This document shows positions 5,881 to 29,405 of a stretch of DNA of 32,694 nucleotides, piece by piece (within the stretch, counting starts at the first letter, position 1; each line of letters starts with the position of its first letter). Source of the stretch: a virus; the IMG/VR virus record IMGVR_UViG_3300026320_000019, positions 1-32,694 of that record, one strand, 5' to 3'. Under the pieces are notes generated by a model. It saw only the letters and a program-made list of their open reading frames with translations, was not told the DNA's origin and did no database searches. A program made the translations under genes and the position numbers.

Positions 5881-6076
5881 GATCGGCAAATTGACGTTCT
5901 ACTACTCTCGCCTCGTTCGTCTCTTTGCCTCCTCGATTCGCAATAGTATTATATCATTTTCCAGGGAGGTTTTGTTAAGGTTGTTAAGGAAGTGGAAGGC
6001 GGTCAGCTGTCAGCGCTCAGTGGTCCCTGTAGATAGATGCAGCTGCACTGGATCCAAATAATGATCATGATAGAAT
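5881..6076. other. Intergenic stretch with a 19-bp dyad copy and a short REP-like repeat
   Basis: No gene is supported here. TCAGCTGTCAGC near 6002-6013 also occurs, with a very similar flank, at about 32541-32552. Copy 1 of the dispersed GYAG-N10-CTRC dyad lies at 6029-6047. Confidence 0.5.
6029..6047. repeat. Dispersed 19-bp dyad, copy 1
   Basis: GTAGATAGATGCAGCTGCA fits the consensus GYAG-N10-CTRC shared by 12 sites in the window. It lies just beyond the 3' end of hicB, marking the left boundary of the hicBA-DUF6941 block. Confidence 0.55.
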
Positions 6077-7199: not shown

Positions 7200-7252
7200 G
7201 TAGATATTTTTGTCTGCGCGATATCGGGATCCTGTAGATGGATGTGGCTACA
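7200..7252. repeat. Dispersed 19-bp dyads, copies 2 and 3
   Basis: GTAGATATTTTTGTCTGCG (7200-7218) and GTAGATGGATGTGGCTACA (7234-7252), 34 bp apart (about three helical turns). They lie between the DUF2513 gene and the start of the DUF6941-hicA-hicB unit, in the position expected for operators, or at the right boundary of that cassette. The segment between them contains CGATATCG. Confidence 0.65.
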
Positions 7253-7263
7253 GTTGCCGGAAG

Positions 7264-12190: not shown

Positions 12191-12310
12191 GAGTCTATGA
12201 TCAAAACTGTGCCAGGGTGTGTGGAGCGATCTACGTGCCCTGGATGGTCAATAACAATAACATCGTGTAGTCACTTAGGTCTGTGACTTTTGAGTAAAGG
12301 AGTTTACCAG

Positions 12311-13018
12311 ATGCAAGCATTGCAATTTACACATAACACCATCCGCATGTTGGGCGTGCATGGATTGGCTGTCTATATGCTGATGCGCTGTGCAGAACAA
12401 GAGGGGATCGTGCCCATTACTCATCAATGGATATGGGATCACATGCCCGGCAAGACTAGCGTAAACACAGTAACTGCGGAACTGCGCAGATTGACCAGCC
12501 TAGAATATCAGATCGCCGTGAGAGTAAAGGGTGGGTGGAGGCTGAATCGGGAGAATGCGTTTCAACTGCCATTGACTTATGAATTATCGGATGGTGCTGA
12601 AACCGAGAATCTCTCAGAGAGAGATTCTGTAGCTACTACTACTACTACTATGGAAGAGAGAAAATCAGATAAGTTAGTAGTAGTAGTAAAGAGTCCCGAG
12701 AATCTCTCAGAGAGAGATTCTGTGGTTTACGAAACACCTGGTGTGACCTTCGAAAGGAACTTGAAGGCATGCAGGGATTGCAATATTGGGGAACCAAAAG
12801 CATCGCAGATCTCAGAGATGCCATGGGTCTTTCCTGACTTCATCAAAGCGCATGTGGATAGCCTGTATGCCAGCGATGTGGTGGGACTAGCGATCAGACG
12901 CATTGAGGGAAATGAATTACCGCGGATTTGGAAGGAAGCCACAACCGTGCGTGATGGTCTCGACGATAAGATCGCGAGGCTGCGGGCACGGGATAATAAC
13001 GATGAAGAGGAAGAATGA
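12311..13018 (+). CDS. Putative replication initiator / helicase-loader-like protein with winged-helix N-terminus
   Basis: A 235-residue protein. Residues about 8-80 look like a winged helix: LGVHGLAVYMLMRCAEQEGI, then TVTAELRRLTSLEYQIAV and a wing GGWRL. A low-complexity linker of about 45 residues follows (ENLSERDSV, TTTTT, KLVVVVKSP, ENLSERDSV again). A C-terminal domain of about 85 residues (WVFPDFIKAHVDSLYASDVVG) completes it. This two-domain plan is that of phage replisome organisers such as lambda O and DnaD-like loaders, whose linker-coding DNA can carry the origin. AAAGGAG lies 9 nt before ATG 12311; a TTG at 12290 is less likely. The assignment is by architecture, not sequence identity. 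Confidence 0.55.
   Translation: MQALQFTHNTIRMLGVHGLAVYMLMRCAEQEGIVPITHQWIWDHMPGKTSVNTVTAELRRLTSLEYQIAVRVKGGWRLNRENAFQLPLTYELSDGAETENLSERDSVATTTTTMEERKSDKLVVVVKSPENLSERDSVVYETPGVTFERNLKACRDCNIGEPKASQISEMPWVFPDFIKAHVDSLYASDVVGLAIRRIEGNELPRIWKEATTVRDGLDDKIARLRARDNNDEEEE
12603..12723. repeat. Nested repeat/palindrome structure inside the initiator gene: candidate origin
   Basis: A 28-bp direct repeat occurs at 12603-12630 and 12696-12723, exactly 93 bp (31 codons) apart. Each copy contains a perfect palindrome (AGAATCTCTC-AGA-GAGAGATTCT, the first at 12606-12628). Between them, (CTA)6 at 12633-12650 faces (TAG)4 at 12675-12686, so the arms pair with each other around a 24-bp A-rich centre. The whole block is therefore symmetrical at two scales. 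It encodes the inter-domain linker of the putative initiator. Lambda-type phages place their iterons in the same position within the O gene. Confidence 0.7.
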
Positions 13019-18302: not shown

Positions 18303-18348
18303 TTTAGGTGACATGTTGCTTTTGCGGGGGACATGAATGTCATCTAAA
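18303..18348 (+). promoter_or_regulatory. Leader hairpin that hides a start codon
   Basis: UUUAGGUGACAU (18303-18314) can pair along its full 12 nt, with one G-U wobble, with AUGUCAUCUAAA (18337-18348). The right arm begins with the AUG of the next gene, and the purine-rich GCGGGGGAC ribosome-site region lies in the 22-nt loop. Translation would need the stem opened, which suggests regulation. Confidence 0.55.
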
Positions 18349-18675
18349 TCATTCCGTGAACGTAAATTTGTACTATGCACCGGTGAGATTGCCACACGTG
18401 AAAAACTGGCAGAGTATCGTGATAGTCATATTGTTGGCGAATTGCATCATTTGGTGCGAGACGGTATCGATCTCACTGTCTGCGCAGTGTATACCTCATC
18501 GTATCGTGTTACTCAAGTATTATCACCACCGCCTATGATCCGCTGGTATGCCATTGGTGATGCCATCATCCCGTGCGAGTTATGTGATCATCGTCGCGAT
18601 TGGAGCATCAGCCGAACCGGTCTCTTTTGGTTGATGGCACGAATTTACAAAAACTTTTCATCGAGCGGGATATAA
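18337..18675 (+). CDS. Hypothetical protein, unknown
   Basis: A 112-residue protein (MSSKSFRERKFVLCTGEIA... NFSSSGI), unrecognised. It contains a possible CxxC (PCELCDH, near residues 87-93) and a YRVTQVL strand. The start codon is in the right arm of a 12-bp leader hairpin, and a TATAAT box lies about 70 bp upstream. The end overlaps the -10 box of the next promoter (18671), so this is a single-gene unit between the early and packaging regions. Confidence 0.6.
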   Translation: MSSKSFRERKFVLCTGEIATREKLAEYRDSHIVGELHHLVRDGIDLTVCAVYTSSYRVTQVLSPPPMIRWYAIGDAIIPCELCDHRRDWSISRTGLFWLMARIYKNFSSSGI

Positions 18676-18768
18676 TAGTTTGTAGTTAGCTGTTGCAGTC
18701 CTGGCTTTGTCTGGGACAATCCGTCGGAATAATGCGCCCGACGACTCTATAGAGTCGTCGGGCGCATT
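18671..18768 (+). ncRNA. Promoter -10 and two-hairpin leader RNA, copy 1
   Basis: TATAAT (18671-18676) is followed after 22 nt by a structured leader. Hairpin A is TCCTGG-6 nt-CTGGGA (18699-18716). After 17 nt comes hairpin B, from GCGCCC at 18734 to GGGCGC at 18765, part of a 38-bp perfect palindrome (18731-18768). From hairpin A to the end of B is 67 nt, the same length as copy 2 at 24325. The two copies share 49 of 67 bases. The change in hairpin B (G-C here, A-T there) is compensatory, showing that the fold is kept. TTCGTTT follows, a poor terminator tail. It precedes the holin-like and terminase genes. Confidence 0.65.
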
Positions 18769-18799
18769 CGTTTAAGTCCAAATTCAAAAGGAGCTTCTC

Positions 18800-19228
18800 A
18801 TGCAATTAACACTCGAAGAACTATTGAAAGCGCTTGGTCTGCCCGTTGGTCTGGCTGTGGTCATTGCCGGCATTGCTACATATCTGGGCTTGCCATTGGA
18901 TCAGGCATTCCAGATGTTCGGTGTCCTCGTTGGACTACCGTTTGCTATTGGACTCATCGTCGATGTGCTCAAGCTGGTTGGTGTTGTCACTGATGGCACG
19001 GCGGGAGTCTGGTCCGCTGGATTTAATCTAGTTGCGATCATCGGACTTGCGATCCTATTCAAGTATATGCCGACCTTTGATGTCACCACCTGGGATGCGA
19101 AACTACTTGAGTTTGCCAAGGCTCTTGTTGTGATTGTTACTTGGATCACTCAACTCTTTGGAACCAAAGGTGCGCATCAGTTCTATACCCGTGGTTTAGG
19201 CATTACACGGTTTAGTTCTACTGGCTGA
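18800..19228 (+). CDS. Holin-like small membrane protein
   Basis: A 142-residue protein with three to four hydrophobic segments (about 14-32, 38-58, 70-88 and 104-120) and little else. This is consistent with a holin or another small phage membrane protein, although most holins are nearer 100 residues. AAAAGGAG lies 7 nt before the ATG. It is the first gene behind the two-hairpin leader and lies far from the GH25 lysin on this map, though both could be late. The overlap TGATG couples it to the HNH gene. The holin call rests on topology only. Confidence 0.5.
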   Translation: MQLTLEELLKALGLPVGLAVVIAGIATYLGLPLDQAFQMFGVLVGLPFAIGLIVDVLKLVGVVTDGTAGVWSAGFNLVAIIGLAILFKYMPTFDVTTWDAKLLEFAKALVVIVTWITQLFGTKGAHQFYTRGLGITRFSSTG

Positions 19229-19551
19229 TGCCGCATCGAGCACCACGTCCATGTGCTGCACATCCGTGGAACCTGATCAGTGATGGCACTGGCTGCCCAG
19301 ATTGTCTGGCACAGCCGGTGCTTGAACAGTATCGTAAGAAGTTCTTCAGTGTGCCACGTGTCTGTGCATGTGGCTGCGGACTGGCCGCCACCATCCACAA
19401 CGCGGACATCGATCATATCATAGCTGTCACTGGTCCAAGCGATCCGTTGTTCTGGAAACATTCGAACCATCAAGCCCTCATACATGGTCATCACTCACGA
19501 AAGACAGCAACAGAGAATAGAGTCTCCCCTCGGCGAGGTAGGGGGATGTAA
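19228..19551 (+). CDS. HNH endonuclease
   Basis: A 107-residue protein. The HNH core is ADIDHI (D62, H63), then N80 in KHSNHQALIHGHHSRKT, with H89 and K92 as the usual metal and phosphate contacts. Two Cys pairs (CPDC, CACGC) can hold a structural zinc. Small HNH proteins beside terminase genes are common in HK97-like phages, where they assist genome cutting for packaging. The position just before the small terminase fits that role. The C-terminal SPRRGRG comes from a CCCCTC...GAGG...GGGG palindrome that looks like another REP-like insertion. The start overlaps the holin-like gene's stop. Confidence 0.8.
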   Translation: MPHRAPRPCAAHPWNLISDGTGCPDCLAQPVLEQYRKKFFSVPRVCACGCGLAATIHNADIDHIIAVTGPSDPLFWKHSNHQALIHGHHSRKTATENRVSPRRGRGM

Positions 19552-19638
19552 ATCTTCATGGCTCTCGCACATAGACCGTAGTTTGTGCACCGGTAAAAGT
19601 TTTTCTCCCAATGTGAAAAATTCGCGACCATAGAAATT

Positions 19639-20202
19639 ATGCCAGCTAAAAAGGATTCATCACTCAATAAGCGACACGACACGAAAGCGGACAAAAAGAA
19701 GCGAGAGTCTGCTGAGGCAGCGATTAAACCCACCACAAAGCTGACCGTCAAGCCGCCGGCCGCGTTGACTGGACACAAGCACGCCAGTGCCATATGGACT
19801 CGGCTGTTGAGTCTGTACGCGGAAACGAAAGGCGAGATCATCACCGCCTTCGATGCGGATGAGTTGATCAAGTTATGTATGGCGGAGGAAGAGTTGGTGG
19901 AGTTACAAGAATTGCGTAGTGAGATCAAAGATGTTTGGGATCGACACATCAGATGGCTAAATAAACTAAAACCCAATAATGAAAATCTGAGCGATTATTT
20001 CAGCGCACTACAACAAGCGAATGCTTTGTTGCAGAGATTTCAGGGAATTGATGCGCGCCTGGATGGCAAACGGAAATTGATACATAGCCTGGCACAATCG
20101 CTATACCTTACGCCGCGATCGCGGGCGGGTGTGGCGCCACCAGAGAAGGAACCGGAAACGCCGAAGAGTGAAATGGACAAGATGCTTGATGGAAAGGATT
20201 GA
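19639..20202 (+). CDS. terS: Terminase small subunit (P27-like)
   Basis: A 187-residue protein. A basic N-terminus (KRHDTKADKKKRESAE) leads into LTGHKHASAIWTRLLSLYAETKGEIITAFDADELIKLC, which resembles the P27 family of small terminases (x-W-x-R-L...I-T-x-x-D). A helical second half ends acidic. It recognises phage DNA and recruits TerL. Position, directly between the HNH gene and terL, supports this. No strong ribosome site precedes the ATG; a short hairpin (AAGTTTTTC/GAAAAATT near 19597-19622) lies upstream and may limit translation. Confidence 0.7.
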   Translation: MPAKKDSSLNKRHDTKADKKKRESAEAAIKPTTKLTVKPPAALTGHKHASAIWTRLLSLYAETKGEIITAFDADELIKLCMAEEELVELQELRSEIKDVWDRHIRWLNKLKPNNENLSDYFSALQQANALLQRFQGIDARLDGKRKLIHSLAQSLYLTPRSRAGVAPPEKEPETPKSEMDKMLDGKD

Positions 20203-20205
20203 ATC

Positions 20206-20703
20206 GTGAAAAACCTATTTGACAAAATAGCTGCAAAAATTACAGACAAGATCGATCTCAAAGTCGTTGAGATTCTCAGGGCGGAGATTGTCAGGCTCGA
20301 ACTTAAACCAGGCGACATGATTGTGCTTAAATCAAAATTCGCTCTCACATCAATTGTCATGGAGCACTTGAAAAAACATATGGAAAAAATATTTCCAGAT
20401 CACGAGCATAAGATTATTATGCTTGAAAAAGATTTGGATTTGGTGGTACTCATAGACAACAGAAAAAATACATATCATTTGAGAGATGGATGGTTTTTTA
20501 GTCGCTTATCAAGCGGCGACGTTGCAATTGAGAAGCACAAAACCGATGATGAGACGTCGCCATTAATTGCATATATCAACATTCCGCCCAACGAATGGGC
20601 AAGCATTGTAGCGCAGGTATCGGTGCATGGCGATTTCATGCCGTATTTTCAACAGGCCCTTGATTTTCACAATGGCACAGAACCTTCCGATAATGCCACT
20701 TAA
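20206..20703 (+). CDS. Hypothetical protein between the terminase subunits
   Basis: A 165-residue protein starting at GTG (20206), unrecognised. The N-terminal half is helical and charged (FDKIAAKITDKIDLKVVEIL); the middle has strands (HKIIMLEKDLDLVVLID). There are no membrane segments or catalytic motifs. It lies 3 bp after terS and 14 bp before terL, an unusual insertion between two genes normally adjacent. It could be an accessory packaging factor or a recently inserted gene. Confidence 0.6.
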   Translation: MKNLFDKIAAKITDKIDLKVVEILRAEIVRLELKPGDMIVLKSKFALTSIVMEHLKKHMEKIFPDHEHKIIMLEKDLDLVVLIDNRKNTYHLRDGWFFSRLSSGDVAIEKHKTDDETSPLIAYINIPPNEWASIVAQVSVHGDFMPYFQQALDFHNGTEPSDNAT

Positions 20704-20717
20704 AGTACAACGTAAAA

Positions 20718-22352
20718 ATGTTCGATGAAGCGAAGGCTGAGCGTGCAGTTAAGTTCATGGAGCTGATGAAGTTGACGGGGGATTTTCATGGGCAGCCATT
20801 CAACTTGATGCCCTGGCAAAAGCAGATCGTCTGGGATGTGTATGGAACAATGAACCCGCGTAGGGTCCGTCAATATCGTTATGTCTATGTGGAGTGTCCA
20901 AAAAAGAATGCCAAGAGTCAGCTGACAAGTGGAATCGGGAATAAGCATCTATTCGATAAAGAAGAACCGAACGGGCAAATCTTTTTATGCGCAGGCGATA
21001 AAGAACAAGCAGAGCAAACGATTTATTTTCCCCTGGTGGAAATGATCGAGCAGGATCCATCGCTGATCAAGCGCGTCAAAATTACCGATAGCAAAAAGTT
21101 TATTGAGAATAAAGAGACGGGCACCACGTTGAAAGTGATCAGTGCAGAGTCCTATACCAAACACGGTTTGAATGTTTCATGTTGTATCTTCGATGAACTT
21201 CACGCTCAGCCTAATCGCGATCTATATGACGTGATGATCAAGAGCGCGGGTTTGGCGCGGCGCCAGCCGATCTGGTGGGTGATCACCACCGCGGGCGATG
21301 ACCCCGATAGAGTCTCCATCGGGTGGGAGGTGCACGAGAAAGCCGCATCCATTCTAAAGGCGCGTGAGTCGGGGGACGCGTCCAAGGATCTCAATACCTG
21401 GTACCCAGTCATTTATTCGTATGATGGTGAAAAAATTTATGATGAAAAAAACTGGAAAAAGGCAAACCCATCATTGGGGACCACGTTGCAGATTGAAGAC
21501 CTGCGCGATCTGGCGAATGAGGCGAAGCTGCATCCGGCGGATGAACGACTCTTCCGATGGTTTAATTTATGTCAGTGGGTGACCACCAAGCTCACATCCT
21601 GGCTGCCGTTGGATCTGTTCGATAGCACGAACGGCGAATGGAGTCGCACGGATCTGCTGGGTAAGGAATGTTATCTCGGCATGGATCTCTCGACGACGAC
21701 GGACCTGAGCGCGATCTGCCTGGTGTTTCCGCCACAGGATGATTTCGACGATTGGCGCGTGATCTGGGATTGTTGGATTCCTGAAAAAAATATGCAAGCA
21801 CGCATCAAAGAGGATCATGTGCCTTATGATGTTTGGGCAGCTGCGGGTTGGATCCAACCGACCGAAGGCGACACGATCGATTACACCATTATCGAAGAAC
21901 GGATTCAGGAAGTGCGCAAGCTCTACAAAGTGATCGAACTGGATGGAGATAAATCGTTTGCGACGATGCTATGGCAGCGCCTCGAAACGGACCATTTGAC
22001 CTGTGTCGATATTCCCCAGCAGTATGCCACGCTGACGGACCCTATCAATCAGATCGAAGTGTTACTGAAAGAGCGTAATAAATTCGAGTTGGATGATGGG
22101 ACGATCATCGAGGAACCGGCGCTGACTCACGAGGCGCACCCAGTGGCGCGTTGGTGTTTTGGTAATACGTCGGTTGTGAAGAACGGGAATGCGCAGATCA
22201 AATTTGTGAAGCAACATAAGGGCAGGGGCTTGGATCGGACGAAGCGCATTGATCTATCCATTGCGATGGTGTGTGCAATGGCACGCGCGCGATTCTATAA
22301 GACGATCAAGAGTGTGTATGAAAAGCGAGGGGTGAGAAGGGTGGGGGAATAA
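20718..22352 (+). CDS. terL: Terminase large subunit
   Basis: A 544-residue protein of the phage terminase (PF03354-like) type, the packaging motor and headful/site nuclease. The ATPase part shows an atypical Walker A (ECPKKNAKS, about 59-67) and Walker B CCIFDE (155-160), followed by the coupling segment VITTAGDD. The nuclease domain has GMDLSTTTDLSA with the first Asp near 323, ELDGDKSF near 400 and DLSIAMVCAMA near 520, giving the acidic metal-binding set. Length is normal for the family. By hand count the gene contains 26 GATC sites, about four times the random expectation. Confidence 0.92.
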   Translation: MFDEAKAERAVKFMELMKLTGDFHGQPFNLMPWQKQIVWDVYGTMNPRRVRQYRYVYVECPKKNAKSQLTSGIGNKHLFDKEEPNGQIFLCAGDKEQAEQTIYFPLVEMIEQDPSLIKRVKITDSKKFIENKETGTTLKVISAESYTKHGLNVSCCIFDELHAQPNRDLYDVMIKSAGLARRQPIWWVITTAGDDPDRVSIGWEVHEKAASILKARESGDASKDLNTWYPVIYSYDGEKIYDEKNWKKANPSLGTTLQIEDLRDLANEAKLHPADERLFRWFNLCQWVTTKLTSWLPLDLFDSTNGEWSRTDLLGKECYLGMDLSTTTDLSAICLVFPPQDDFDDWRVIWDCWIPEKNMQARIKEDHVPYDVWAAAGWIQPTEGDTIDYTIIEERIQEVRKLYKVIELDGDKSFATMLWQRLETDHLTCVDIPQQYATLTDPINQIEVLLKERNKFELDDGTIIEEPALTHEAHPVARWCFGNTSVVKNGNAQIKFVKQHKGRGLDRTKRIDLSIAMVCAMARARFYKTIKSVYEKRGVRRVGE

Positions 22353-22378
22353 ATGGCACCTATGGTATATTTCGCCAC

Positions 22379-22771
22379 ATGGCACGAAAAGATATTTCTG
22401 ATGAGTTGATTTGTTTAGCATATACTGAATATCATGAAAGGATGTTGGGCGGTCTTTATCCATATCAGGCTCTTGCCGAATGGACTGGTGAACATGAGAA
22501 GGTTTGCTGGCGTGCTTGTGAGAGAGCGGAGCGCCATGGATTGTTGATCACAGGCGTATCATTGCGAAGCGCATGGCTCACTGATAAAGGAAAGGAACTT
22601 CTCCAAAATAAAATTCGATCTGACAACAAATCTTTTGAAACAATCCCTATGGGTAAAAGTCCGATTGAAGATTCACTTGAATGGCTTGTTTTGGATGCAC
22701 ATCTAGTCAAAAAAATCGCGCTTATGTTTCACGTTCCAATTGAATTATTATATCCATCTAAAGGTGATTGA
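22379..22771 (+). CDS. Winged-helix-like hypothetical protein
   Basis: A 130-residue protein. EWTGEHEKVCWRACERAERHGLL followed by SAWLTDKGKELL resembles a winged helix, as in MarR/DUF2513-type folds. The C-terminal 45 residues (DSLEWLVLDAHLVKKIALMF) are hydrophobic and helical. It is unrecognised. It starts 26 bp after terL and may be a late-gene regulator, by inference. Confidence 0.55.
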   Translation: MARKDISDELICLAYTEYHERMLGGLYPYQALAEWTGEHEKVCWRACERAERHGLLITGVSLRSAWLTDKGKELLQNKIRSDNKSFETIPMGKSPIEDSLEWLVLDAHLVKKIALMFHVPIELLYPSKGD

Positions 22772-22776
22772 ACAGC

Positions 22777-22974
22777 ATGAAGCTGATCTGTGGCTTTCAC
22801 AGAAAGGGTCAATGGTGGTTTCGAGTCTTTGGGATTGGGCTTTCGTGGAAAAATATTCGGATTCATGGGTTGATGTTTTCAGAGCGCTATGGGCATCGAA
22901 AAGGTTTACGCTTGGGGTCTTGGATGTTTCATTTTCTCCCCTATGTTTCGTTTGTTGAACTTCATCGAGGGTAG
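22777..22974 (+). CDS. Small basic aromatic protein, unknown
   Basis: A 65-residue protein rich in W, F, G, R and H (MKLICGFHRKGQWWFRVFG... PYVSFVELHRG). Similar short W/F/R-rich proteins are common as unannotated genes in environmental phages, but I know no function. AAAGGTG provides a fair ribosome site; an in-frame TTG 9 nt earlier is less likely. Its stop lies inside copy 4 of the dispersed dyad, so this gene ends exactly at the boundary of the methylase cassette. Confidence 0.55.
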   Translation: MKLICGFHRKGQWWFRVFGIGLSWKNIRIHGLMFSERYGHRKGLRLGSWMFHFLPYVSFVELHRG

Positions 22975-23071
22975 ATGGTTTTGTCTGCACTGCAGGAATT
23001 ATCTGAAGCGTAGATATTTATGACTGCTAGGTCCACAAATATTTGTGGACCTAGCAGTCATTTTTGACTAC
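22971..23071. repeat. Dispersed 19-bp dyads, copies 4, 5 and 6, around a 42-bp palindrome
   Basis: GTAGATGGTTTTGTCTGCA (22971-22989), GTAGATATTTATGACTGCT (23010-23028) and, in inverse orientation, the copy at 23053-23071 (reverse complement GTAGTCAAAAATGACTGCT). Starts are 39 and 43 bp apart. Copies 5 and 6 face each other and their inner halves are the ends of a 42-bp perfect palindrome (23020-23061). A further small hairpin, CTACGGC-GCAT-GCCGCAG, follows at 23069-23086. They mark the 3' boundary of the methylase gene. Confidence 0.7.
23020..23065 (+). terminator. Rho-independent terminator after the packaging genes
   Basis: A 42-bp perfect palindrome (23020-23061: ATGACTGCTAGG... and its reverse complement) is followed by TTTTT (23061-23065), as required for termination of rightward transcription. 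On the minus strand no T-run follows. It separates the rightward terL unit from the convergent methylase gene. Confidence 0.75.
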
Positions 23072-23778
23072 GGCGCATGCCGCAGGAATTCCATCGCTTG
23101 CAACAGGACACGCTTTTCGAGGGTAGGCATGTTTGCTAGGCGTTCTTCCCAGCGTTTGATTTTGCGCTTGATGCGTTGGCGATCGGTGCGGTTTTCTCCC
23201 AGGAATGAATAATCATGCAGGGCAATAGGTTCGGGGTAATTCATCCATAGCCATTCTTTAGCGGGTCTGCCTGCGCGAGTCATCGCGTTATAAGAGAGTG
23301 TGCGCCAATCTTTTAATTCATTGGCATAGAGCTTTGACCAATAGCCTGAGATCATCACCATGCACTTCAGGGATTTGATCAAAGTCAATAGAGTCTGATG
23401 TTGTTCGACGGTATCAAATTCGTGTTCGTAAATATCGCCTTGCCAGGAGCGCACAGGCGTGCCATCGATGTCACGCTTTAGATAAGGCGGGTCGAGATAG
23501 ACAAAGCAATTCTCTTCAGGGTAGCCCGATGTGTCTACAGCGGCCCGCAGCGTTGTGATCACGTCGTCATTTATGACTACACCAGCTGGTAATGATTCGC
23601 GCAAAAGATTTGTTGAACCACTGTAGACATCAATAACTACAGTAACGTGGGCAGGGCGTTTCATGCGCGCGATGGTGCCAGAACCGGCGAAGCCTTCAAA
23701 GAAAGCATCGTGCGGCGGGATTTGGTTGATGATGGTCTGGAAGACTCCAGCTCCGTTTTTACTGCCTGGGTAATTCAT
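23068..23778 (-). CDS. D12-class (Dam-type) adenine-N6 DNA methyltransferase
   Basis: A 236-residue protein. MNYPGSKNGAG is the N-terminal motif of D12 methylases, FFEGFAGSGT (26-35) the SAM-binding motif, and DPPY (96-99) the catalytic motif. MVMISGYWS and the C-terminal helices also fit the family. All motifs are intact. D12 enzymes typically methylate GATC. The very high density of GATC in the phage core makes that specificity attractive here, where methylation could protect phage DNA from restriction or time packaging and replication. It is leftward against its neighbours and bracketed by nine copies of the 19-bp dyad, so it looks like an inserted cassette. Confidence 0.88.
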   Translation of the reverse strand: MNYPGSKNGAGVFQTIINQIPPHDAFFEGFAGSGTIARMKRPAHVTVVIDVYSGSTNLLRESLPAGVVINDDVITTLRAAVDTSGYPEENCFVYLDPPYLKRDIDGTPVRSWQGDIYEHEFDTVEQHQTLLTLIKSLKCMVMISGYWSKLYANELKDWRTLSYNAMTRAGRPAKEWLWMNYPEPIALHDYSFLGENRTDRQRIKRKIKRWEERLANMPTLEKRVLLQAMEFLRHAP

Positions 23779-23789
23779 GGTGATATCCT

Positions 23790-23983
23790 GTAGATGGATT
23801 TGTCTGCATCCGATCGAACGATCGTGGGTGCAGATGGAAATGACTGCGGCTCCGGAGTCGTAGTCGAATCTATCTGCGACACCATGGTGCTGTAGTTAGA
23901 AACGACTGCACTTACCGGTAAGTGTAGATGGGAATGTCTACATTGTCAAGAGTCTAGATCCCGCGCAGTTGGAAATGGCTACA
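23790..23983. repeat. Array of six 19-bp dyads upstream of the methylase (copies 7-12)
   Basis: Copies start at 23790, 23830, 23860, 23892, 23924 and 23965; steps are 40, 30, 32, 32 and 41 bp, close to whole numbers of helical turns (4, 3, 3, 3, 4). All fit GYAG-N10-CTRC; the most symmetrical is GTAGATGGGAATGTCTACA (23924). The spacers are themselves imperfect palindromes, for example CTGCACTTACC/GGTAAGTGTAG and GACTGCGGCTCC/GGAGTCGTAGTC, so the whole 194-bp region can fold into successive hairpins. It occupies the space between the methylase start and a rightward promoter. An operator array is the simplest reading; an origin or recombination site is possible. Confidence 0.7.
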
Positions 23984-23989
23984 GTTCCG

Positions 23990-24208
23990 GAGATGCTTGA
24001 CATTTTATTTTTGTTTTGCTATTATGTGCATGGCGGTGATCAGCTTGCCCCCCTCAAGCCAGAAGCCGCCCTTGACTTTGATACCTTTTTTGACTTTGGG
24101 GACTGGCTCGGTGTGCCGTCCGTTGAATGCAAGGAACGGATCTTGATTGTGAGAGCGAAAGTTTTGCATCACTTAGGCGTAAGTTGCATAGCCAGAGTCT
24201 ACGATTAG
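23990..24208 (+). CDS. Small acidic protein, weakly supported
   Basis: A frame of 72 residues from ATG 23990. The part from HGGDQLAPLKPEAALDFD to the end looks like real acidic protein, but the N-terminal 12 residues coincide with a near-perfect promoter. Other starts (GTG 24026, ATG 23975) are possible. There is no properly spaced ribosome site. It ends 1 bp inside a strong hairpin. It is unrecognised, and may be an inserted small gene of the methylase cassette. Confidence 0.35.
   Translation, partial: EMLDILFLFCYYVHGGDQLAPLKPEAALDFDTFFDFGDWLGVPSVECKERILIVRAKVLHHLGVSCIARVYD
23997..24025 (+). promoter_or_regulatory. Candidate strong promoter beside the dyad array
   Basis: TTGACA (23997-24002), 17 nt, TATTAT (24020-24025): a near-consensus promoter 14 bp after the last dyad. 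However, the same bases may instead be the first codons of a small gene (LDILFLFCYY). If it is a promoter, the adjacent dyads would be well placed to control it. Confidence 0.5.
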
Positions 24209-24238
24209 ACAACCGCCCATCTCACATCGGGCGGTTGT
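24207..24238. terminator. Hairpin terminator, weak T-tail
   Basis: GACAACCGCCC (24207-24217) pairs perfectly with GGGCGGTTGTC (24228-24238) around a 10-nt loop. It starts at the stop codon of the small gene. Neither side has a good T-run, so termination may be partial. It isolates the methylase cassette from the next promoter 32 bp downstream. Confidence 0.6.
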
Positions 24239-24269
24239 CGCTTAACCTAAAGGTCACACGTAACTGCAA

Positions 24270-24297
24270 TTGACTCTTTCCTTGATGGGGTTATAAT
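24270..24297 (+). promoter_or_regulatory. Promoter of the head-gene unit
   Basis: TTGACT (24270-24275), a 16-nt spacer and TATAAT (24292-24297). It is the best rightward promoter in the late region, with a predicted start near 24304, so the two-hairpin leader begins about 20 nt into the transcript. Confidence 0.75.
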
Positions 24298-24324
24298 TTG
24301 CCGCAGTTGAATATTTGATCGCAC

Positions 24325-24391
24325 TCCTGGTGTAGACCGGGAGAATGTTGGAACCTGATGCGCCCAACGACTCTATAGAGTCGTTGGGCGC
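24325..24391 (+). ncRNA. Two-hairpin leader RNA, copy 2
   Basis: Hairpin A TCCTGG-6 nt-CCGGGA (24325-24342), 17 nt, then hairpin B from GCGCCC at 24360 to GGGCGC at 24391, a 32-bp perfect palindrome. Geometry (6-6-6, 17, 32) is identical to copy 1 at 18699, while the linker and loop have diverged. In hairpin A, CCGGGA replaces CTGGGA, turning a G-U into a G-C pair. In hairpin B, an A-T pair replaces G-C. Downstream TTTCGTTT is too weak for a sure terminator. A cis-acting antitermination RNA, as in the put sites of phage HK022, or an attenuator would explain two promoter-proximal copies. Confidence 0.65.
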
Positions 24392-24412
24392 TTTCGTTTC
24401 CCAGGAGTAAAT

Positions 24413-24447: not shown

Positions 24448-24939
24448 ATGGATTTTTTTTCTCTGATCGTCACGTTCATCGGCTCCTCGGTTTTCTCGTC
24501 ACTTGTAACTTTGTACTTCACACGATCCAACCTTGCGGCGCAGACCAAAGAGATCAACGCCAAGGCAGCCTCGGAGGAAATCGATACCACCAATAAGGCG
24601 TCCGATTTAATCAAAGAGAGTCAGGGACAGATCGTTGATCTGTATAAGCAAAATACTGAGCTTGAAAAAAGTAACACCGATAAAACGCGGACCATTGAAA
24701 TTTTAACATCGCGATTGGAATTGCGTGATCGGCAACTGGCAGCTTGCAATAAACAAATGGAGCGCCTGACAAGTTTGGCAAAACAGGCGCCCATCATTGA
24801 GACCCTGCGCACACAATTGGATTCTGTGAACAAGATCGCCACTGAGTTGCAGAAATTATTGATCGAAAAAGAAAAGACCTTGCAGGAATTATCGCAAACC
24901 AACCGTGATCTTGGAATGCATAAGCCGCCCGAATCATAG
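24448..24939 (+). CDS. Single-helix membrane protein with coiled coil
   Basis: A 163-residue protein. Residues about 4-24 form one transmembrane helix (FSLIVTFIGSSVFSSLVTLYF). The rest is highly charged and heptad-like (ELEKSNTDKTRTIEILTSRL and onward), indicating a long coiled coil. Layout and length resemble inner-membrane spanins or other phage lysis accessories, but no outer-membrane lipoprotein partner was found nearby. It is the first sizeable gene of the head-gene transcript and is followed by two further small membrane proteins. Confidence 0.6.
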   Translation: MDFFSLIVTFIGSSVFSSLVTLYFTRSNLAAQTKEINAKAASEEIDTTNKASDLIKESQGQIVDLYKQNTELEKSNTDKTRTIEILTSRLELRDRQLAACNKQMERLTSLAKQAPIIETLRTQLDSVNKIATELQKLLIEKEKTLQELSQTNRDLGMHKPPES

Positions 24940-24950
24940 AAAGGTGAACA

Positions 24951-25112
24951 ATGAAAAATATCACTGTGATGCAGATCGCGGAAATTATTTTTTGGGGCGC
25001 ATTGGCACTGCTCTATTTAAATGTTCGTTTTCAATATCAAGAGTTTTTGATCGGCATCTGTGCAGGTGCGATTTGCATTATCAAGATCGTGGGTGTGTTG
25101 CAACAACAATGA
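24951..25112 (+). CDS. 53-residue membrane protein
   Basis: Read directly: MKNITVMQIAEIIFWGALAL, then LYLNVRFQYQE, then LIGICAGAICIIKIVGV and QQQ. Two hydrophobic segments are separated by a short polar loop. GAAAGGTG lies 6 nt before the ATG. The stop overlaps the next ATG (ATGA), so translation is coupled. The family is unknown; it could be a holin/antiholin-like or virion-assembly membrane peptide. Confidence 0.6.
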   Translation: MKNITVMQIAEIIFWGALALLYLNVRFQYQEFLIGICAGAICIIKIVGVLQQQ

Positions 25113-25306
25113 AACGTTTTATCGCCTGGTTCAATGCACAGGAACGCAATGAGCGAGTCTATTGGCTGGCTCAGTTGTTTTTGTTTATTGGCTTGACAGG
25201 CTCCGCATCGATCTTCACAGCATTGACAGTGGTGGGCGCTGTGATGGTCGTTGAGAGTGTGATCACATCCTACATCGCAGCGTTGGTGAATGCGAGGATA
25301 TCGTAA
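25109..25306 (+). CDS. 65-residue membrane protein
   Basis: MKRFIAWFNAQERNERVYWL begins an amphipathic N-terminus, followed by two hydrophobic stretches (LFLFIGLTGSASIFTALTVVG and MVVESVITSYIAALV). It starts in an ATGA overlap, and its stop overlaps the portal ATG (TAATG). Three consecutive small membrane genes (24448, 24951, 25109) directly before the portal are unusual and may be a lysis cassette. Function unknown. Confidence 0.6.
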   Translation: MKRFIAWFNAQERNERVYWLAQLFLFIGLTGSASIFTALTVVGAVMVVESVITSYIAALVNARIS

Positions 25307-26955
25307 TGCCTTTGACCACCGATATGATTCGCACTTCGCTCGCCGAAAAAAATGTACGACCGGTGCGCACTTCATTACGCGAGCGCAGTTATAGCGATGA
25401 GACCATCACGGTCGAGTCAGCGATCACGGTTTCAGGCGTGATCGCCATCATCACGATCATCTCCCAGGATACCGCCAGTCTGCCATTGATCCTCTACGGC
25501 AAAAAGGGGCGCAATAAATTCCGTGCCACCGATAATCCTTATTACGCATTGATGCACGATCAACCGAACCCCGAACATAGCGCGATGACTTTCCGTGAGT
25601 TTATCGTCAGCCACATGATCGCCTGGGGTAATTTTTTTGGACAGATAATCGCCGATAAAGCCGGTACCGTGCAGGAAATCTGGCCGTTGCGGCCCGACCG
25701 CATGCAAGTGAAGCGCGTGGATGGACGAAAGATTTTTCTTTATCAAGATAGCGAAGGCAAACCGCGTGTTTTTTTTAGTGATGAGGTATTGCATATTCCG
25801 GCGTTTGGTTTTGATGGTCTGGTTGGACTTTCCCGTATCGCGCTGGCGCGACATGCGATTGGTTTGACTCAATCAACCGAGAAATATGGCTCCAAGTTTT
25901 TCGCGAATGATGCAGAGCCTGGCGTGATCTATAAACATCCGGGGTCACTAAGTGATCCTGCCTATACACATCTCAATGATACGTTGAAAGAGCGTTCGGG
26001 TGTTGAAAATAGTCATAAGCCGATCATCCTGGAAGAAGGCATGAGTATCGAGAAATTGGGCATTCCAAATGATGATGCACAATTTTTAGAGACGCGCAAG
26101 TTTCAGCTTTCCGAGATCAATCGCATTGTCGGACCTGTGCCGCCGCATATGATCGGCGATGTTGAAAAAAGCACCAGCTGGGGTTCAGGGATCGAGAATC
26201 AAGAACAAGGCTATGTTAATCATACGTTGCGACCCTATACCGTCCGCATGGAGCAGGGGCTGAATGGTCAGCTCTTATTGCAGTCCGATCGTCAGGCTGG
26301 TTATTTTTATGAGCATTTATTCGATGGCTTCCTGCGCGGCGATATTGCCACCCGTTATGAAGCCTATGTCAAAGGTATCAACAACGGTTTCATGAGTCGT
26401 AATGAAGTTCGAGCGAAGGAAAACATGAATCCCCGCAAGGGCTTGGATGATCTCTTGCAACCCTCGAATATGACCACCATCAACGGCAGCGGCGCAGCGG
26501 ATAGCGCCAGCCCAGACAGCCAGGACAATTCTTCCTATGCTCTCATGCCAATTTGGCAAGATACCGTCACACGAGTGATGAAGCGTGAATCGAATGATCT
26601 GCTGGGCGCTTCGAAGCGTTACCAGGCGAAGGGGCAGCAGGATGAATACGTTGAATGGCTCAATCAATTTTACAGTGTGGATCATCCTGCTTTTGTTAAG
26701 AAACAATTCCAGCCTGTGCTCGATGCGGAAGCGCGTTTATTTGGGATCGACCGACACAAGGAAGTGCATGCATTTGTTACTGAATTTTTATTTGAACGGA
26801 TCGATCAATCCCTGGCAATGAGCCATGAGGCATTATCAGCCACGCTGGATCGATATGTTGAAACCGCAACACAAAAATTTATCATGTTTTTAGACTGGAA
26901 TAATATGCTGCGCTCCGGCGCAGACGATCTGGAGATTGAATATGAAACCGAATAA
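25306..26955 (+). CDS. Portal protein (HK97-type)
   Basis: A 549-residue protein. VSGVIAIITIISQDTASLPL near residue 50, NPYYALMHDQPNPEHSAMTF, AWGNFFGQII and the conserved RDRTG-like block EIWPLRPDRMQV are typical of HK97-family portals, as are PPHMIGDVEKSTSWGSGIE and GFMSRNEVRAKENM. The portal forms the dodecameric DNA gate at one capsid vertex, docking terminase and connectors. It is longer than the usual 400 residues because of an additional C-terminal domain of about 130 residues after a Ser/Asp-rich linker. The end overlaps the protease gene by 14 bp. Confidence 0.9.
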   Translation: MPLTTDMIRTSLAEKNVRPVRTSLRERSYSDETITVESAITVSGVIAIITIISQDTASLPLILYGKKGRNKFRATDNPYYALMHDQPNPEHSAMTFREFIVSHMIAWGNFFGQIIADKAGTVQEIWPLRPDRMQVKRVDGRKIFLYQDSEGKPRVFFSDEVLHIPAFGFDGLVGLSRIALARHAIGLTQSTEKYGSKFFANDAEPGVIYKHPGSLSDPAYTHLNDTLKERSGVENSHKPIILEEGMSIEKLGIPNDDAQFLETRKFQLSEINRIVGPVPPHMIGDVEKSTSWGSGIENQEQGYVNHTLRPYTVRMEQGLNGQLLLQSDRQAGYFYEHLFDGFLRGDIATRYEAYVKGINNGFMSRNEVRAKENMNPRKGLDDLLQPSNMTTINGSGAADSASPDSQDNSSYALMPIWQDTVTRVMKRESNDLLGASKRYQAKGQQDEYVEWLNQFYSVDHPAFVKKQFQPVLDAEARLFGIDRHKEVHAFVTEFLFERIDQSLAMSHEALSATLDRYVETATQKFIMFLDWNNMLRSGADDLEIEYETE

Positions 26956-28207
26956 ATCCTATGTCCTGCAAGCCTTTATGCAAACTCCCTGGGCGATCCT
27001 GCCTAGTAAATTGGCTGAACTCGAAGAGATCATGGTCCGACATATCTCCGGCGAAAAGCTCGAAGCGGAAGAAATACAGGCGCGCATCCAGGGCGCAGCT
27101 GCGCGTCCGCAGAATCGCCAGGTGAACAGTGTCGCGGTGTTGCCACTCTTCGGGACCATCATCCCGCGTGCAGATTATTTTGAAGAATCTTCCGGCGCCA
27201 CTTCTGCGGAATCATTCGGCAAACAGTTTGCCAAATTATTGGCAGATCCATCGGTGGATGCGATCGTGATCGATGTCAACAGTCCGGGTGGGCAGGTGGG
27301 TGGTATCCAGGAAATATCTCAACAGATCTATGATGCGCGTGGTACGAAACCGATTATTGCGAGTGCCAATCAGTTGATGGCATCGGCGGCATATTGGGTT
27401 GGCACCGCTGCGGATGAGTTGGTAGTTACGCCCTCTGGAGAAGTTGGCTCGATCGGAGTCTTTGCCGTACATCAGGATATGAGTGCAGCACTTCAGGAGG
27501 CGGGACTGAAATTGTCCATCATCAGTGCGGGGAAATATAAGGTCGAAGGGAATCCATATGAACCACTCACCGAGGAAGCTCGTGGCGCAATTCAATCCAG
27601 CGTCAATGATTTCTATGATGCGTTTGTCAACGATATAGCTCGCAATCGGGGTGTGAGTCCGGATGCGGTCCGCAACGGTTTTGGCGAGGGGCGTGTGGTG
27701 AGTGCACGCCAGGCTGTGGATCTGGGGATGGCAGATCATATCGAGACATTGAACGAAACCATTAGTCGTTTATTCAGCGGGCAGGTGCCTGCTTCACAAT
27801 CCTCTGCCATGCAAGAGGCGCGGGCGCGCCTGGCGTTGGCAGAACAGAAAACCTATACAGGAGATTCAAATATGCTACGCAATTTACTCAAAGCCCGCGC
27901 GGATAAAGTCACGCGCGCGCAAGCATTGGCAGACAACGCGGATAAAGAGAACCGCGATTTCACTGAGGAAGAACGCGCTGAGTTTAATCAACTGCTCGAT
28001 GAGGTCGATGCATCTGATGTCCAGATCGAAAAGATGCAAGGCGAGCGCGAGCGGCTGCGCATTGCCGTAGACAAGAAGTTCGATGTCAACGAAGCGGTGA
28101 AGCCAAATGAGCAGAAGACCAACGCTATGAAGCGGGCGGAGTTCGACAAGCTCGATCCAGCTGTTCAGGCCGCCTTCATGCGCGGTGGCGGCAAACTCGA
28201 AGAGTAA
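26942..28207 (+). CDS. S49 (SppA-like) head maturation protease with C-terminal scaffold-like domain
   Basis: A 421-residue protein. Residues about 60-300 match S49 phage proteases: IVIDVNSPGGQVGG, the catalytic serine S148 in LMASAAYWVG, SGEVGSIGV, and the lysine in SAGKYKVEGNPYEPL (K198 or K200). The last 111 residues, MLRNLLKARADKVTRAQAL to the end, are helical and charged, like the delta/scaffold domain of HK97-type capsid proteins. Fusion of protease and scaffold recalls lambda C with nested Nu3. ATG 26942 is preferred because GGAG lies 7 nt upstream. It processes the prohead before DNA packaging. Confidence 0.85.
   Translation: MKPNKSYVLQAFMQTPWAILPSKLAELEEIMVRHISGEKLEAEEIQARIQGAAARPQNRQVNSVAVLPLFGTIIPRADYFEESSGATSAESFGKQFAKLLADPSVDAIVIDVNSPGGQVGGIQEISQQIYDARGTKPIIASANQLMASAAYWVGTAADELVVTPSGEVGSIGVFAVHQDMSAALQEAGLKLSIISAGKYKVEGNPYEPLTEEARGAIQSSVNDFYDAFVNDIARNRGVSPDAVRNGFGEGRVVSARQAVDLGMADHIETLNETISRLFSGQVPASQSSAMQEARARLALAEQKTYTGDSNMLRNLLKARADKVTRAQALADNADKENRDFTEEERAEFNQLLDEVDASDVQIEKMQGERERLRIAVDKKFDVNEAVKPNEQKTNAMKRAEFDKLDPAVQAAFMRGGGKLEE
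27859..28207 (+). promoter_or_regulatory. Internal ribosome site and in-frame start for a nested scaffold protein
   Basis: AGGAG (27859-27863) is 8 nt before an in-frame ATG (27872). Translation from there gives a 111-residue helical protein corresponding exactly to the scaffold-like domain. Several phages make excess scaffold from such a nested gene, so this is probably used. The site is as good as that of the coat gene. Confidence 0.65.
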
Positions 28208-28256
28208 TCGCTCTTCAAGACTCTATTGGATCAATCATCAACAAGGAACATATCTC

Positions 28257-29405
28257 ATGTCTAACACCCTTACCAATCTTATTCCCGATGCATATGCCGC
28301 ATTGGATGTTGTCTCACGCGAGCTGGTTGGATTCATTCCATCGGTAGCCCGCGATTCTTCCGCTGACCGTGTCGCGCTCGGCGCCACGCTGCGGATTGGA
28401 CAAACCCCACCGAATGCGGGAGGCACGAACATCACACCGGCGATGGCTTTCCCATCTGTCGCTGATCAAACGATCGGCAACAAATCCTTCACGATCACTA
28501 AGGCGCGAGCCTTCCCGTTTTCATGGAGTGGCAGCGAACAAAAAGCCATCAACACCGGTCCGGGCTTTCTGACGGTCAAACAGGACCAGATCGCGCAAGC
28601 CTTCCGCGCAGCCATCAACGAAATGGAAGTCGATATCGCCCTGGCTGCGAAAAATGGCGCATCGCGGGCATATGGCACGCCAGGCGCCACACCGTTTGCA
28701 TCATCCCTGATCGATCCCGCCAACGTCAAGAAGATTTTGGATGATAACGGTGCACCAGCATCTGACCGTCATTTGGAAATCGATACAACCGCAGGTGCGA
28801 AGTTGCGCACGCTGGCGCAGTTGACGAAAGCCAATGAAGCTGGCGGAGACCAATTGCTGCGCCAGGGCACGCTCTTGGATATTCATGGTTTTCAAATTCG
28901 CGAATCGGCGCAGGTGCAAAGTCACACCAAAGGCAGCGGCGCAACCTATCAACTGAATGGCGCGCACGCGGTGGGTGCTACCACGCTGGCAGTGGACACC
29001 GGTTCCGGGACCATTCTGGCTGGAGATACTATCACCATCGCCAATGGCACACCGGCAGATACCAACATCTACGTTGTCACCACGGCGCTAACAGGTGGCA
29101 ACGTGATCATCGCCGCACCTGGTCTGCGTTCTTCACACATCGACAACGATGCGGTGACAGTGGGCAATGCCTACACTGGCAACATTGCCCACAGCCGCAA
29201 CGCCATTCTGTTGGGCACTCGTTTGCCAGATGTACCAGAAGAGGGCGACCTGGCAATCGACCGCTATACGATCACCGATCCGGTCTCGGGTCTTTCGTTC
29301 GAACTGGCCATGTATCCCGGCTATCGCATGATCGTCTATCAGGTGCTCATTGTCTGGGGCGTGACGGTGATCAAGCCCGAGCATGTTGCGATCCTGTTCG
29401 GCTAA
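28257..29405 (+). CDS. Major capsid protein (P22 coat / gp5-like)
   Basis: A 382-residue protein. The N-terminus SNTLTNLIPDAYAALDVVSREL and following IPSVARDSS...GATLRIGQTPP match the P22 coat family. ARAFPFSWSGSEQKAI and MEVDIALAAKNGASRAYGT continue the fold. A beta-rich insertion of about 85 residues (GATYQLNGAH to VGNAYTGN) corresponds to the inserted (I) domain of P22-like coats, after which the fold resumes with NAILLGTRLPDVPEEGD. AAGGAA precedes the ATG at 28257; the earlier frame is the tail of the protease gene. P22-like coats normally need a separate scaffold, consistent with the nested product just upstream. Confidence 0.88.
   Translation: MSNTLTNLIPDAYAALDVVSRELVGFIPSVARDSSADRVALGATLRIGQTPPNAGGTNITPAMAFPSVADQTIGNKSFTITKARAFPFSWSGSEQKAINTGPGFLTVKQDQIAQAFRAAINEMEVDIALAAKNGASRAYGTPGATPFASSLIDPANVKKILDDNGAPASDRHLEIDTTAGAKLRTLAQLTKANEAGGDQLLRQGTLLDIHGFQIRESAQVQSHTKGSGATYQLNGAHAVGATTLAVDTGSGTILAGDTITIANGTPADTNIYVVTTALTGGNVIIAAPGLRSSHIDNDAVTVGNAYTGNIAHSRNAILLGTRLPDVPEEGDLAIDRYTITDPVSGLSFELAMYPGYRMIVYQVLIVWGVTVIKPEHVAILFG

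Follow-up and report, generated by a model that had tools for sequence, protein, structure and literature searches.

Conserved twin leader RNAs ahead of the late operons of a Chloroflexota phage as probable terminator/antiterminator switches

We analysed a 32.7-kb linear virus record of IMG/VR (IMGVR_UViG_3300026320_000019; all 32,694 nucleotides, hereafter the window), described as a soil phage, which carries two similar RNA leaders, one ahead of its packaging genes and one ahead of its head genes. These twin leaders are members of a conserved, undescribed RNA family. Each combines a small hairpin (A), a linker and a second, terminator-like hairpin (B), and the linker pairs with the 5′ arm of B in an alternative helix, P2. 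Conservation of the element, the helices A, B and P2, the mutual exclusivity of P2 and B, the twin placement and the co-occurrence of a small CxxC phage protein were all computed directly. Because the leader can adopt either a stop signal or a competing fold, and because the CxxC protein co-occurs with it, the leaders are probably an on/off switch of phage late genes. On the sequences at hand, we consider it likely that they are terminator/antiterminator attenuators of the late operons, with the CxxC protein as the most plausible switching factor. We read this phage and its many relatives as infecting Chloroflexota bacteria. To our knowledge, few phages have had their late-gene control worked out in detail, and none of them is a phage of Chloroflexota.

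Leader 1 (18694-18773) precedes the packaging operon and leader 2 (24320-24399) the portal and head operon, and both lie with their promoters on the + strand. In leader 1 a TATAAT -10 box (18671-18676) with a poor -35 is followed by the 5′ strand UGCA of a second alternative helix, P0 (18694-18697; complementary to 18733-18736), a 7-bp hairpin A (18698-18717), the P2 pentamer GUCGG in the linker (18723-18727; complementary to CCGAC, 18738-18742) and the terminator-like hairpin B with its U-rich tail (AUUCGUUU, 18734-18773). The 3′ strands of P0 (UGCG) and P2 (CCGAC) occupy 18733-18742, within the 5′ arm of B. Leader 2 follows a sigma70-like promoter (TTGACT-16-TATAAT, 24270-24297; 11/12) and comprises CGCA (24320-24323; complementary to 24359-24362), a 7-bp hairpin A (24324-24343), GUUGG (24347-24351; complementary to CCAAC, 24364-24368, and thus a compensatory change relative to leader 1) and the terminator-like hairpin B with its U-rich tail (UUUCGUUU, 24360-24399). 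Over B and tail, 39 of 42 bases are identical between the two copies, and the core of B, GACTCTATAGAGTC, is found at these two places only within the window (0.04 expected, allowing up to two mismatches). The twin elements lie where a preliminary description of the window had placed them. Its two hairpins per element stand, whereas their lengths required revision: A has 7 bp rather than 6, and for B, leader 2 has a G+C-rich stem of 14 bp and leader 1 a perfect palindrome with 20-nt arms. Its TATAAT box before each leader was recovered, that of leader 1 with the weak -35. The compensatory changes that it reported between the copies were likewise found, in the first pair of A (G-C/C-G) and in B (C-G/U-A). 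Absent from it were the U-rich tail of B, the complementarity of the linker and of the 5′ NGCA to B, the CxxC protein and a further hairpin at 24032-24070.

Relatives were collected by a terminase search, pattern scans and a covariance model (R1) built on hairpins A and B only. Together these, including the covariance search that the preliminary description had proposed, returned 53 matches above 50 bits, 48 of them distinct, from viral contigs and Chloroflexota metagenome-assembled genomes, and the covariation in A and B extends to these 48 homologues. Most records spanning the region contain two leader copies on one strand, 3.5-8 kb apart. As was claimed for the window, one copy normally precedes the packaging genes and the other the head genes in relatives covering both, a pattern that also holds for a portal just 22% like that of the window. 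The virus records are fragments, and the gene-context classes derive from BLAST to window proteins and simple open reading frame (ORF) calling. A TATAAT-like box lies 5′ of nearly all members (mean best promoter score 11.5, vs 8.9 in shuffled upstream DNA). In a 400-genome sample of the phylum, 8 genomes had any R1 match and only one (G015) a strong match; within the 152-genome family of G015, strong leaders were present in 6 genomes. Weak R1 matches (25-46 bits) occur in many host genomes, and those inspected resemble ordinary terminators, while plasmid matches proved to be partial chance matches. The earlier statement that no described family has this sequence agrees with our searches: Rfam 15 gave no family at gathering score and nothing relevant at E≤5, and 50,697 phage records gave no leader match. 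Nothing on the element was found in the literature covered, which did not include a 2017 list of 224 RNA motifs.

Across the 48 distinct members, 99.1% of the cells in A and B are paired, a value reached in 0/500 shuffles and far from the 26-52% of slid controls, and both sides have changed in 14 of the 21 pairs. The tail of B has on average 6.8 U in 9 nt, so that B and its tail have the form of an intrinsic terminator. Such a terminator between promoter and first gene is present, as judged by sequence form only. Linker and loops are also strongly conserved in sequence. The plain terminator, which the preliminary description named as the case that would refute it, is unlikely, since hairpin A, the linker and NGCA would not then be conserved; it is most likely that the leaders act on transcription elongation. 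Translation of a leader peptide was rejected: MRPTTL* can be read in both window copies, but the frame is not conserved in the aligned members, and the AUG in UGAUGCGCCC is missing from L009, L010, L046, L047 and others.

The complement of the linker pentamer (GUCGG, GUUGG, AUCGG and others) lies in the 5′ arm of B, giving P2. This helix was absent from the model that produced the alignment, and 45 of the 48 rows are fully paired in it, vs 35.3 when shuffled. When each distinct linker/arm combination is counted once, divergent members included, 13 of 16 pair against 5.0 expected (0/50,000 shuffles), and this counting mostly removes the problem of relatedness. The variants include GUCGG:CCGAC, AUCGG:CCGAU, GUUGG:CCAAC, GCUGG:CCAGC and GCCGG:CCGGC, with GACGG:CCGUC, GGUGG:CCACC, GGAAG:CUUCC and GGCGG:CCGCC in addition. 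Ranked among 2701 column pairs against the background of the same alignment, P2a1-P2b5 is 12th and P2a3-P2b3 39th, and for P0, P0a4-P0b1 is 23rd and P0a3-P0b2 52nd. If the linker were a mere copy of the 3′ arm of B it would track that arm too; P2a1 with the 3′ arm falls outside the top 45 column pairs, and direct-repeat mimicry was therefore rejected. P0 (NGCA:UGCG) is 95.3% paired (0/500 shuffles), with the double changes GUG:CAC (L135) and CGCG:CGCG (L004). P0 crosses P2, and each of them occupies the 5′ arm of B; therefore they and the terminator are mutually exclusive. In sequence terms, P2 and P0 constitute a predicted pseudoknot-like antiterminator. For transcripts that extend no further than the 5′ arm of B, the minimum-energy fold includes P2 in 47/48 members. 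The leaders thus contain a conserved alternative helix able to tie up one arm of the terminator, as supported by the covariation of P2 and, more weakly, by P0.

Immediately upstream of leader 1 the window encodes a 112-aa CxxC (zinc-finger-like) protein (18337-18672, + strand), which we put forward as the candidate cognate regulator. It was picked for its position: its family, of ~100 aa, is the commonest gene upstream of leader 1 (13/15 records). The alignment of the family (A4) has invariant H31, G34, P66, G74, C80, C83, W89 and L99, and varied too much to serve in a peptide scan of viral contigs. Neither Pfam nor PHROGs has a family for the protein, and PDB sequences searched with a profile yielded just marginal matches to BIR domains (best E 0.014). 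Its AlphaFold model has a predicted local distance difference test (pLDDT) score of 88; in fold searches all PDB matches had E>2, and one nameless viral predicted model was matched at E=2.6e-4. Of 25 leader records, 19 encode the protein. Five of the other six appear, judging from leader positions, to be fragments that stop short of the region upstream of leader 1, and the sixth is G003. In the 152-genome family it was found in 6/6 leader genomes and in 2/146 others. Among 400 genomes of the order, five have a leader above 50 bits, and the protein occurs in those 5 and in 6 others. Four of these six (G440, G754, G666 and G773), whose terminase family is phrog_38 and not phrog_9, were inspected beside the protein gene, and in each of them weak same-strand R1 leaders lie downstream of it. 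Leaders near the distant CxxC homologues were too divergent for the original match list and played no part in forming the idea of P2, and each of the four has an intact 5-bp P2 (GCCGG:CCGGC, GACGG:CCGUC, GGUGG:CCACC and GGAAG:CUUCC). In G437 a leader with P2 GGCGG:CCGCC lies 9 kb downstream of the CxxC gene. Tested singly for the longest match, the divergent leaders are not significant (p 0.10-0.22); their P2s all sit in a fixed register just 5′ of a RUGAGCR stretch. Given this co-occurrence of leader and dedicated phage protein, the earlier proposal of control without a protein antiterminator is probably wrong.

We hypothesise the following sequence of events. RNA polymerase (RNAP) would start a few dozen nt upstream and hairpin A would fold, after which the linker (P2) and the 5′ NGCA (P0) would pair with the emerging 5′ arm of B as a pseudoknot-like antiterminator. 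Were this left unstabilised, the 3′ arm would displace P2 and P0, B would form, and transcription would halt at the U tract, ~70-100 nt into the RNA. A trans factor holding the antiterminator fold would allow RNAP to read into the packaging or head genes, and this factor would most likely be the CxxC protein (~100 aa) whose gene lies upstream of leader 1. A single factor acting on both leaders would switch on the two late operons at the same time, in the manner of Q at lambda pR′. That B terminates transcription, which way the switch works and what part the CxxC protein plays are what we infer here, and a factor-dependent attenuator is the simplest reading because a terminator close to a late promoter, a competing fold and an accompanying phage protein occur together. 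We favour local control over processive antitermination because a hairpin detector covering loops of 3-9 nt revealed no strong terminators of note inside the operons; the only other strong terminator-like hairpins that it showed between the leaders or behind them mostly stand directly 5′ of leader 2, where they close operon 1. More tentatively, leaders and protein might form a self-contained late-gene cassette of Chloroflexota phages, in which a new CxxC family would recognise the pseudoknot-like antiterminator RNA directly at two late promoters, the RNA-protein pair moving between phages with unrelated terminase and portal genes; this is a possibility that we take seriously but stop short of favouring.

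Several observations weigh against a protein-switched attenuator. The stability of B greatly exceeds that of P2 (-22 to -33 vs -3 to -6 kcal/mol), and therefore antitermination would need kinetic or factor help and the default state of the full-length leader is probably the terminator. In some members the tails of leader 1 are poor as terminators (GUUUGAUUC; AUUCGUUUA in the window). Of the two alternative helices P0 is the weaker, and we hold it less firmly, since members of the GAGCG type can form just its two inner pairs. The divergent record G003 has leaders, and the CxxC protein was not detected in it. Moreover, it was the protein that directed attention to G440, G754, G666, G773 and G437, and the leader of G437 was identified by eye. 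Shared phage ancestry inflates the co-occurrence of leader and protein, to an extent limited by the differing terminase families, and the protein could have a different role, its gene being simply linked to the others of the late region.

Among other explanations, an attenuator switched by a small ligand in the manner of a riboswitch, by a host protein or by the pausing state of RNAP, rather than by the CxxC protein, is unlikely in our view. The pseudoknot-like fold joined to an expression platform would suit it, and the tandem leaders that precede the integrase operon of a different element in G015 (L152 7130-7308) recall tandem riboswitches, but the genes downstream are phage structural genes in diverse phages and form no metabolic pathway, and the CxxC protein tracks the leader even across unrelated terminases. 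It is very improbable that the leader is a promoter-to-terminator unit yielding a ~75-100-nt trans-acting phage small RNA, with the genes behind it expressed by leak or other promoters. Such a unit would have its own promoter, a terminator-like end and strongly conserved linker and loop sequences, all of which are seen; against this, each of the two late operons of a phage has a leader set tightly ahead of its first gene, and the linker covaries with the terminator arm in cis instead of matching a target elsewhere. Scarcely credible is the analogy drawn in the preliminary description, that the leader acts like the put RNAs of HK022 by binding RNAP and making it processively terminator-resistant without a protein: position near the promoter, ~70-nt length, two stem-loops and two copies per phage are as in HK022 (PMC9378689), but B and its tail are terminator-like, P2 competes with B, the operons have no strong internal terminators that we could see, a terminator closes operon 1 before leader 2, and sequence and lineage differ.

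Some leaders depart from the common arrangement. On contig 67 of G015 two leaders stand in tandem (L152 7130-7217 and 7220-7308). The first lacks a U tail and its B is imperfect. Behind the pair come genes of a different mobile element, among them those for a 71-aa DNA-binding-like protein and an integrase. The 67.7-kb viral contig G009 has leader pairs at 20550/24105 and 56836/60571 in two related late regions (69-84% DNA identity in matching pieces), and is perhaps two adjacent prophages. A divergent leader type was seen in L006 (5699-5775 and 2665-2765), with the hairpin ACCGAAAGGU and a possible P0 (GCGU:ACGC), in a phage whose terminase is 82% identical and in which the CxxC protein was not detected. 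Just 5′ of P0 in leader 2 lies a conserved box (GTTGAATATTTG / GTTGAATATTT, 24306-24317, + strand), recurrent in relatives; GTTGAATATTT stands 5′ of many members and tracks the leader, not the promoter. Pairing of a box UUGAAU with a downstream AUUCAA was rejected, as the two are never in the same leader. In several records a perfect Shine-Dalgarno-like stretch, GAAAGGAGG (or AAAGGAGG), lies between the promoter and leader 1 with no obvious start codon: L028 (646), L034 (1702), L048 (2292), L095 (1501), L097 (1501) and L027 (11591), on the upstream side.

The first gene of operon 1 (operon 18800-22352, + strand) has an AAGGAG ribosome-binding site and ATG (18788-18802), and the operon encodes a small membrane protein, an HNH endonuclease, TerS, a hypothetical protein and TerL; operon 2 starts with a coiled-coil-like protein, portal, protease and major capsid (24448-29405, + strand). 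The terminator-like hairpin closing operon 1 ahead of the leader 2 promoter is at 24208-24239 (+ strand) and has equivalents in relatives. A perfect 19-bp hairpin with a U tail (23020-23061), between operon 1 and a convergent DNA methylase gene, is likely a bidirectional terminator. A further hairpin with the apical loop CCCCCCU (24032-24070, + strand), the C-loop hairpin, lies directly 3′ of a promoter (23997-24025), and this copy has no Rfam match. It is conserved 30-500 nt upstream of leader 2 in more than 20 records and was not seen before leader 1. It sits 7-10 nt 3′ of a TTGACA/TATAAT-like promoter, in some cases in two copies, and its loop is often bordered by CUUG/CAAG or GGGUG/CACCC. 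Elsewhere it was found in L004 (12886), L005 (9694), L008 (8649), L022 (10071 and 8447), L030 (1420 and 1318) and L137 (13633). An imperfect palindrome, TGTAGATGGATNTGTCTGCA, recurs between genes (6026-6057, 7231-7262, 22970-22990, 23787-23818 and 23923-23943) and is possibly the operator of a phage repressor. Lastly, a 28-nt exact repeat with copies 93 nt apart (12603-12723) surrounds a run of TAC/TAG triplets in the ORF at 12290-13018.

If the attenuator reading is true, an RNA-fold attenuator with a dedicated protein would be a further mode of late switching, distinct from Q, N/nut and put. A conserved RNA with a candidate protein partner is a compact hypothesis, testable in vitro without culture of the host. 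Moreover, the RNA model and the protein profile mark the starts of late operons in uncultured Chloroflexota phages.

Compared with known systems, the leaders resemble terminator/antiterminator attenuators and pseudoknot riboswitches in that an exclusive antiterminator and an intrinsic terminator share the 5′ arm of the terminator; unlike generic examples of these, they would control phage structural operons, come twinned and match no Rfam family. NusG/RfaH/LoaP-type antitermination was set aside, as PF02357 (NusG-like) was found in 0 of 18 records, which are fragments, with the control positive in 10/14 genomes. The put RNAs of HK022 are two stem-loops without a terminator; by binding RNAP they suppress terminators far downstream, over kilobases, via the zinc-binding domain of RNAP beta′ and without help from a trans-acting protein (PMC9378689). 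Like putL and putR, the leaders are ~70-nt promoter-proximal RNAs with two hairpins and two copies per phage. They differ in carrying a built-in terminator-like hairpin ahead of operons with no strong internal terminators seen, and in the co-occurrence of a phage CxxC protein where put needs none. A close parallel is lambda Q at pR′ (qut, tR′), where a terminator lies close behind the late promoter, expression of the late genes depends on antitermination, the gene of a small regulator is found upstream of that promoter and one factor can serve several late promoters. A Q homologue was rejected, the CxxC protein having no PHROGs or Pfam family and no significant PDB fold. For its action lambda Q relies on a site in the DNA and on a pause that depends on sigma (PMC9378689), whereas the RNA described here has a conserved fold competing with the terminator and comes as two leaders per phage, in phages with Chloroflexota hosts.

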